A DNA stretch of 64,000 nt, from contig WGMW01000009.1 in NCBI GenBank assembly GCA_016124845.1, positions 62,001 through 126,000 of the forward strand, given 5' to 3'. This DNA is from Flavobacteriales bacterium (lineage in GTDB: Bacteria; Bacteroidota; Bacteroidia; UBA10329). Below are positions 61,052-62,821 of this stretch, piece by piece (positions within the stretch are counted from its first letter, which is position 1; each line of letters starts with the position of its first letter). The notes beneath the pieces are model-generated. The model made no database searches and was not told where the DNA came from. It saw only the letters and a program-made list of their open reading frames with translations. The translations under genes and the position numbers were made by a program.

Positions 61052-61597
61052 ATGAGAGATAAAAAGTGGAACACCCCAGTGCAGACTGAGCAGGAAATGT
61101 TCAACAGTTTGCTCGAATTGAGAAAGCAGATTCTTGAGGAAAGTGTGTCTGATGTTCAGAGCACGCGTCACCGCCAGGAGAGCGTAGCTGTTTGGAATGA
61201 CATCGAGTTCATTAACGATTCGAAAGCCACCAATGTGGATCTGACGTGGTATTCGTTGGAGCGTTTGCAAGGAACAGCTGTTTGGATTGTGGGCGGACTG
61301 CAACCCGGACAGGATTACAGCATGCTGAAAGAGCTGGTTTCAGATAAGGTGCGTGCCATTGTTTGTCTGGGGCGTGAGAACGGAAACGTCTTCAAAACCT
61401 TCCTCACAGATGCGGAAGTGATTGTTGGGGCAAGCACAGCCGATGAGGCCGTGAAAGCTGCCGCAACCTTGGCTCGTCCAGGCGATAAGATCATTCTTTC
61501 ACCAGCCTGTTCAAGCCACGATCTATTTGACAGCTACGAAGACCGCGGAAATCAATTCACGAAAGCGGTTCAAAAATTCATTGACTCCAAGAAGTAA
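61052..61597 (+). CDS. Free-standing MurD C-terminal-domain protein
   Basis: A 181-residue protein that aligns without gaps to the C-terminal domain of the preceding MurD from LLELRK onward; I count about 82 identities over about 157 positions. It keeps the D-glutamate-site motifs FINDSKATN and LSPACSSHDLFDSYEDRG. It has no UDP-binding domain, P-loop or central ATPase motifs, so it cannot be a ligase by itself. ATG 61052 follows murD by 20 bases with an AAGGAAA ribosome site, and ftsW begins 3 bases after its stop. The frame is intact with normal codon use, which argues against simple debris. Possible roles are regulation of MurD, glutamate sensing, or a partner-binding scaffold; none is shown. 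Confidence 0.85.
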   Translation: MRDKKWNTPVQTEQEMFNSLLELRKQILEESVSDVQSTRHRQESVAVWNDIEFINDSKATNVDLTWYSLERLQGTAVWIVGGLQPGQDYSMLKELVSDKVRAIVCLGRENGNVFKTFLTDAEVIVGASTADEAVKAAATLARPGDKIILSPACSSHDLFDSYEDRGNQFTKAVQKFIDSKK

Positions 61598-61600
61598 GAA

Positions 61601-62821
61601 ATGGGCTCGCTGATGCGGAAATATCTTCAGGGCGACATGGTCATTTGGGCCGTGGTGTTCCTGCTGTCCCTTATTTCCGTGTTGGCCGTGTACAGCGCCA
61701 CCAACAATTTGGCGCACATCGAAAAGGCCGGAAACACCGAATTCTACCTTTTCAAACACTTCCTCATCATCGCACTCGGCTGGGGAATCATCTACTTCGT
61801 ACACAAGATTCCGTACAACTATTTCTCGCGCATTGCGCAGATATTCCTTTGGATCTCCATACCGCTGTTGGCCGTGACATTGGTTGCGGGAACATCTGTG
61901 AACTCAGCTTCGCGCTGGCTCACACTTCCCGTCATCAACATCACATTCCAAACCTCCGACCTTGCTAAACTGGCGTTGATCGCCTACTTGGCGCGACTCC
62001 TTTCAAGAAGACAGGAAGTTTTGGACGATTTCACGGAAGGCTTCCTTCAGATCGTGTGGCCAGTACTGATCATCTGTGCATTGATTCTTCCAGCGAACTT
62101 CTCTACTGCGGCCGTGCTATTTGCTACATCATTGATCCTCATGTTCATCGGCCGCGTTAAGATCAAGTACTTGGCCGGACTCGTTGGCTCCATCATCATA
62201 TCAGGCGCATTCGTATTCCTGCTTTCCTACGCACTTCCGATTGAGAAAGTGCTACCACGTTTCGGAACGTGGAAAGCGCGTGTGGAAACCTTCATGAGCA
62301 AGGAGGAAACACAGGAAATGGCCGATGCCAATTACCAGACCGAGCAAGCCAAAATTGCCATCGCCACAGGCGGAATCACAGGTGTTGGACCTGGAAACAG
62401 CGTTCAGCGGAACAGACTTCCGAGTGCGTACGCGGATTTCATCTACGCTATCATTATTGAGGAATGGGGCTTCATTGGCGGCATGTCCATTCTGTTCCTG
62501 TATCTGATTCTACTGTTCCGCGGATTGCGAATCGTACATAAGGGAACAACCGTATTCGGAACGCTGCTTGCGTTCGGCTGCACGTTCAGCCTCATCTTCC
62601 AGGCGTTCATCAACATGGCGGTGGCCGTAAATCTGTTCCCCGTAACTGGACAACCATTGCCGCTTCTGAGTATGGGCGGAACTTCCATTTGGTTCACCTC
62701 CATTTCCATTGGAATGATCTTAAGTGTAAGTCGCGCATTAGCCCCCTCATCCCCCAAAGGGGGAAGTGTCACAGAGATTTCCGACAACAGTTTCACCGAA
62801 GCTCAACTTGTCAATGGATAA
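61601..62821 (+). CDS. ftsW: Lipid II glycosyltransferase FtsW
   Basis: A 406-residue SEDS protein with about ten membrane helices, which polymerises septal glycan with FtsI. Motifs: FLLSLISVLAVYSATNNLAH, HFLIIALGWGIIYFVHKIPY, INITFQTSDLAKLALIAYLA, GPGNSVQRNRLPSAYADFIY with AIIIEEWGFIGG, and NLFPVTGQPLPLLSMGGTSIW. The C-terminal tail is odd: A-P-S-S-P-K-G-G-S is encoded by a GC-rich palindrome, and the last codons overlap murG by 8 bases. Confidence 0.96.
   Translation: MGSLMRKYLQGDMVIWAVVFLLSLISVLAVYSATNNLAHIEKAGNTEFYLFKHFLIIALGWGIIYFVHKIPYNYFSRIAQIFLWISIPLLAVTLVAGTSVNSASRWLTLPVINITFQTSDLAKLALIAYLARLLSRRQEVLDDFTEGFLQIVWPVLIICALILPANFSTAAVLFATSLILMFIGRVKIKYLAGLVGSIIISGAFVFLLSYALPIEKVLPRFGTWKARVETFMSKEETQEMADANYQTEQAKIAIATGGITGVGPGNSVQRNRLPSAYADFIYAIIIEEWGFIGGMSILFLYLILLFRGLRIVHKGTTVFGTLLAFGCTFSLIFQAFINMAVAVNLFPVTGQPLPLLSMGGTSIWFTSISIGMILSVSRALAPSSPKGGSVTEISDNSFTEAQLVNG

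Follow-up and report, generated by a model that had tools for sequence, protein, structure and literature searches.

A stand-alone MurD C-domain-like protein encoded between murD and ftsW in Bacteroidia

Introduction

Mur ligases, which textbooks present as single-chain enzymes, are targets of antibiotics, and their activity needs both the UDP-precursor-binding and the ATP-binding domain. Elsewhere, pseudoenzyme paralogues that combine a conserved fold with degraded catalytic residues have been kept as regulatory subunits beside an active paralogue. In MurD, the mobile C domain opens and closes (PMC4816537), and K348 hydrogen-bonds a carboxyl group of inhibitors that mimic D-Glu (PMC3527612). 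In the MurT/GatD amidotransferase, a Mur-ligase-like protein has a separate partner subunit, and the complex modifies the D-Glu of the precursor (PMC6085368). MigC of Acinetobacter baumannii is reported to be a separate MurD-interacting protein that affects the cell wall (PMC12208494).

Here we describe a gene from the 64,000-nucleotide stretch of DNA that we analyzed (the window), encoding a 181-residue protein that resembles the C domain of MurD (hereafter the orphan). It shares with MurD its predicted fold, 52% identity over 157 residues, its operon and its ancestry, but lacks the N-terminal and central domains and has lost K348; losses of K319, N322 and R302 are also frequent among orphans. 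The GatD/MurT complex (6h5e_D) was a weak fold match to the orphan; however, MurT is multi-domain and GatD is unrelated to Mur ligases, whereas the orphan consists of a C domain alone. MigC is a COG0523 zinc protein of unrelated sequence. Unlike known regulatory pseudoenzymes, the orphan retains only one of three domains, and regulation by it is putative. The preliminary description of this DNA knew of no comparable protein, and our literature search, with subscription journals mostly outside its scope, likewise gave no description of one.

Results

The orphan gene begins after a 20-nt gap from murD and ends 3 nt upstream of ftsW, and no terminator was found between the three genes. The features used below are as follows (positions in the window; residues in Escherichia coli MurD numbering, mapped by motif and verified with the residues given in PMC3527612 and PMC4816537):

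59700..61031, + strand: murD, complete three-domain ligase, 443 aa
61052..61597, + strand: orphan, stand-alone MurD C-domain-like protein, 181 aa, ATG start, TAA stop
61052..61108, + strand: orphan codons 1–19, polar N-terminal extension without MurD counterpart, low model confidence
61109..61168, + strand: orphan codons 20–39, homologous to the final helix of MurD's central domain (LLELRKQILEESVSDVQSTR)
~61211..61237, + strand: FINDSKATN motif of the orphan, covering the N316, D317, K319, T321 and N322 positions
~61286..61315, + strand: VGGLQPGQDY loop of the orphan, with Pro, not Lys, at the K348 position
~61499..61549, + strand: SPACSSHDLFDSYEDRG loop of the orphan, with S415 kept, His at the 416 position and Tyr at the 422 position
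61601..62821, + strand: ftsW

The sequence features given in the preliminary description, namely a gap-free alignment to the C-terminal domain of the adjacent MurD, the FINDSKATN and SPACSSHDLFDSYEDRG segments, and the missing UDP- and ATP-binding domains, were all recovered. BLASTP aligned the orphan to residues 287–443 of the neighboring MurD without gaps (82 of 157 identical, 52%; E = 2e-57), a match that includes the last central-domain helix (LLELRK...) and so begins slightly before the C domain proper. Pfam recognized only Mur_ligase_C (32.7 bits; cut-off 28.4), and the NCBIfam MurD model TIGR01087 matched over positions 288–440 only, with a score under its cut-off; the UDP-binding (N-terminal) and ATP-binding (central) domains were absent from the orphan by both resources. 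The orphan is thus a member of the Mur ligase C-terminal domain family (PF02875), by curated cut-off and MurD C-domain fold, but not a three-domain MurD ligase, and without the two missing domains it cannot act alone as a ligase. A search of the window's own genome gave no orphan match other than MurD. The AlphaFold model of the orphan (43 sequences; pLDDT 87.3, pTM 0.80), with a helix predicted at residues 13–33, had MurD structures as all of its best 33 PDB matches, and the protein is accordingly predicted to fold as a MurD C domain.

Intact orphans were present in seven of the eight same-genus genomes (69–90% identity), and the eighth, which is 70% complete, had no orphan match and no MurD match either. 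Across Bacteroidia, a second, stand-alone match was found in 67 of 295 genomes and 17 of 72 families (counted by hand), with families f20, f41, f5 and f27 being mixed for its presence. Inspected loci followed the order murE-mraY-murD-orphan-ftsW-murG on a single strand, with unbroken orphan frames of ~156–240 codons. In every dcw cluster inspected, the orphan lay between murD and ftsW or, in the one genome with a split cluster (G049, family f42; L044, L051), just before ftsW. There, murE-mraY-murD are on one contig and the orphan and ftsW are in the middle of another, so that the orphan persists intact without an adjacent murD. The orphan-ftsW half of G049 is now preceded by HPt-like and ferritin-like genes (identified by eye). 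In one same-genus genome, a gene that by eye resembles four-helix-bundle (S23-type) proteins is located between the orphan and ftsW (L162:4223-4600).

Named Flavobacteriaceae, Crocinitomicaceae and Chitinophagaceae loci, scanned with a closer subset of the orphan alignment because the 23-row alignment was too diverged, had no orphan, and ftsW directly followed murD. Genomes in a phylum-wide sample of 198 showed a single MurD and, beyond the class, nothing that was clearly an orphan; two of them gave a second, weak match. An origin deeper than the class is thus unsupported. The apparent loss of the orphan from many lineages indicates that MurD works without it. Additional degraded MurD-C paralogues were also observed outside the dcw cluster (L032:2935-3471 and L049:3105-3644 in f4, L048:2998-3597 in f46 and L045:2974-3588 in f42), and those of f4 and f46 adjoin an apparent aldehyde dehydrogenase gene.

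In C-domain trees from which the most diverged orphans were excluded, orphans and MurDs fell on opposite sides of one branch (support 97/89 and 98/80), and subgroups of orphans (f1+f4+f42+f46, for instance) by and large paralleled MurD groups. The split recurred, weakly supported (22), in a quick tree enlarged to include every orphan. The trees suggest, as the simplest reading, one ancient partial duplication of murD followed by vertical inheritance and many losses; the orphan of family f11 may come from a separate duplication (AU p = 0.22). A recent, genus-specific duplication was ruled out by the class-wide distribution and the tree.

Selection was estimated as dN/dS by the Nei–Gojobori method (NG86), with dS of the orphan or of the MurD C domain saturated in some pairs. 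Orphan values were 0.024–0.068 in the genus (median 0.050; MurD-C median 0.029) and 0.030–0.040 in f4 (median 0.036; MurD-C median 0.028), and the least saturated orphan pair (dS 0.42) gave 0.036. Selection appeared looser on the orphans of f9, f27 and f37 (dN/dS about 0.1–0.6). With its frame unbroken and purifying selection acting on it in related genomes, the orphan behaves as a conserved functional gene and not as a pseudogene. This also agrees with the tandem partial duplication, retained in the dcw operon, that had been proposed from the window, for which two signs of debris had been named: absence or interruption in close relatives, and neutral substitution rates. Neither was seen, the frame being intact in the seven genomes and dN/dS about 0.02–0.07 in the genus.

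The substrate-facing residues have fared differently in the two proteins. Among 151 Bacteroidia MurDs, Lys occupies the K348 position in 150 and the K319 position in all; among 69 orphans, about 15 have Lys at the K348 position (30 have Lys or Arg), and K319 is kept in 41, N322 in 22 and R302 in 41. Other positions are better preserved in the same orphans (H301 in 68, E304 in 66, S415 in 60 and T/S321 in 54), and the D-Glu set of T321, K348 (as Lys or Arg), S415 and F/Y422 is complete in 15. Within the genus, none of the eight orphans has kept K348 (P, A, D or E stands in its place), but six of them have the complete ATP-side set. The window's orphan reads VGGLQPGQD where MurD reads VGGVDKGND, and so has lost the key D-Glu residue, a point that the preliminary description had missed; it retains the ATP/closure residues R302, D317, K319 and N322, and its Tyr at the 422 position is the same as in Bacteroidia MurD. 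With Pro in place of Lys, it lacks the combination of invariant K348 and ATP/closure residues that characterizes a MurD ligase. Judged by these residues, the catalytic face of the orphan is decayed. MurD itself retained its conserved residues in all 20 aligned murD-orphan pairs, which rules out an orphan that compensates for a defective MurD.

Family f11 departs from this pattern. All ten of its orphans (L035, L178-L186) keep R302, D317, K319, N322 and K348, and their N-terminus is conserved as MTKGNFE(F/I)Q. Compared with the neighboring MurD's C domain, the f11 orphan is ~5× more conserved (median dN 0.030 versus 0.147). That C domain is about 51% identical to the window's MurD, against 64–76% in the other families compared, and also retains every listed active-site residue. 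With nearly all of the active site preserved in the f11 orphan, the role may not be purely non-catalytic in every lineage.

Correlation of distance matrices showed orphan coupling to MurD to be no stronger than coupling to MraY or FtsW; with f11 excluded, orphan distances correlated best with those of MraY (0.71, or 0.33 as a partial correlation). A fused single-chain model of the natural in-frame murD-orphan pair of genome G003, with stop codons read through, reached a pTM of 0.61 from a shallow alignment (20 sequences) and had a disordered linker, and thus offers no confident docking of the orphan on MurD.

Discussion

The orphan resembles a pseudoenzyme: it is a Mur ligase paralogue reduced to one domain, real, conserved and undescribed in the searched literature. 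In many uncultured Bacteroidia it has been stripped of most substrate-binding residues, yet strong selection preserves it, which marks it as a real, putatively accessory protein and not debris. The preferred reading, to which we give slightly less than an even chance, is that of a catalytically dead stand-alone MurD C domain that goes back, on the simplest view, to one partial tandem duplication of murD in a common ancestor of many Bacteroidia and was kept as an accessory subunit in the cytoplasmic steps of peptidoglycan synthesis. Counting against this reading are the lack of a confident docking in the fused model, the coupling to MurD that is no stronger than to MraY or FtsW, the apparent loss of the gene in many lineages and the well-preserved active site of the f11 orphan. 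Having no ATP- or UDP-MurNAc-binding domain and, in the genus, no K348, the orphan would itself be unable to ligate D-Glu and would act by binding. A role as MurD partner is possible, and the likeliest target would be MurD's own core, since the orphan keeps both the scaffold of the mobile C domain and a helix of the central domain through which it could bind; it would then modulate the open–closed cycle of MurD's C domain. Next likeliest, the orphan may tether MurD to its membrane neighbors MraY, FtsW and MurG. This second place rests on the split cluster, where the orphan accompanies ftsW, and on the distance correlations, which are highest with MraY.

The same observations could be read as a scaffold of the membrane stage, in which the partner of the orphan would be FtsW, MraY or MurG instead of MurD, and the orphan would link precursor synthesis to the flippase/polymerase side. 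The orphan always adjoins ftsW, remains with ftsW and not murD in G049, and has its best distance correlation with MraY (f11 excluded); the split cluster, however, is known from one genome only, the MraY correlation may simply be what clock-like vertical inheritance produces, and no membrane-binding feature was seen in the orphan, and we regard this as rather unlikely. Replacement of MurD's own C domain in catalysis by an orphan acting in trans, at least in some lineages, would account for the ten f11 orphans with all five residues and for their conservation beside an unusually diverged MurD C domain. We nevertheless judge it improbable, as the f11 MurD C domains keep all the listed active-site residues themselves, few orphans outside f11 and none in the genus have Lys at K348, and the f11 orphan may be a separate duplication.

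More improbable still is a sensor or competitor for D-glutamate (or L-Glu/ATP), as the preliminary description had proposed. S415 and T/S321 are kept in most orphans, and f37 has the full set in eight of eight if Arg is allowed at K348, but that set is complete in less than a quarter of orphans overall, and every genus member has replaced K348, some with an acidic residue. The loss of K348 makes D-Glu sensing weak for this genus; given the Arg-for-Lys exchange in f37 and the full set in f11, it may apply in other lineages. Of the original proposal, then, the kept and selected partial duplication and the lack of a published description stood, while sensing or competing for D-Glu in this genus did not. 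That the gene is functionless duplication debris, passively retained in a conserved operon, is scarcely credible: its patchy distribution and the fast divergence in f9, f27 and f37 would fit, but the low dN/dS in the genus, the reading frames intact in the 17 families and the single old origin in the simplest tree speak against it, and on the intact frames in relatives together with dN/dS we reject it.

Beyond the accessory-subunit reading preferred for the window, a broader view is conceivable, though doubtful: an ancient Bacteroidia family in which a detached, mostly catalytically dead MurD C domain serves D-glutamate addition in peptidoglycan synthesis as a dedicated subunit, regulatory or scaffolding, and in f11 took over part of the work of MurD's C domain, making for a Mur ligase whose C domain is split or duplicated. 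On sequence alone, the orphan is easily mistaken for a truncated MurD. It offers a clear-cut way to ask whether a protein acting in trans can regulate, or replace, a mobile ligase domain, and the presence of such a conserved, separate C-domain protein next to murD in about one-quarter of the sampled Bacteroidia families points to unrecognized control or organization of peptidoglycan precursor synthesis.
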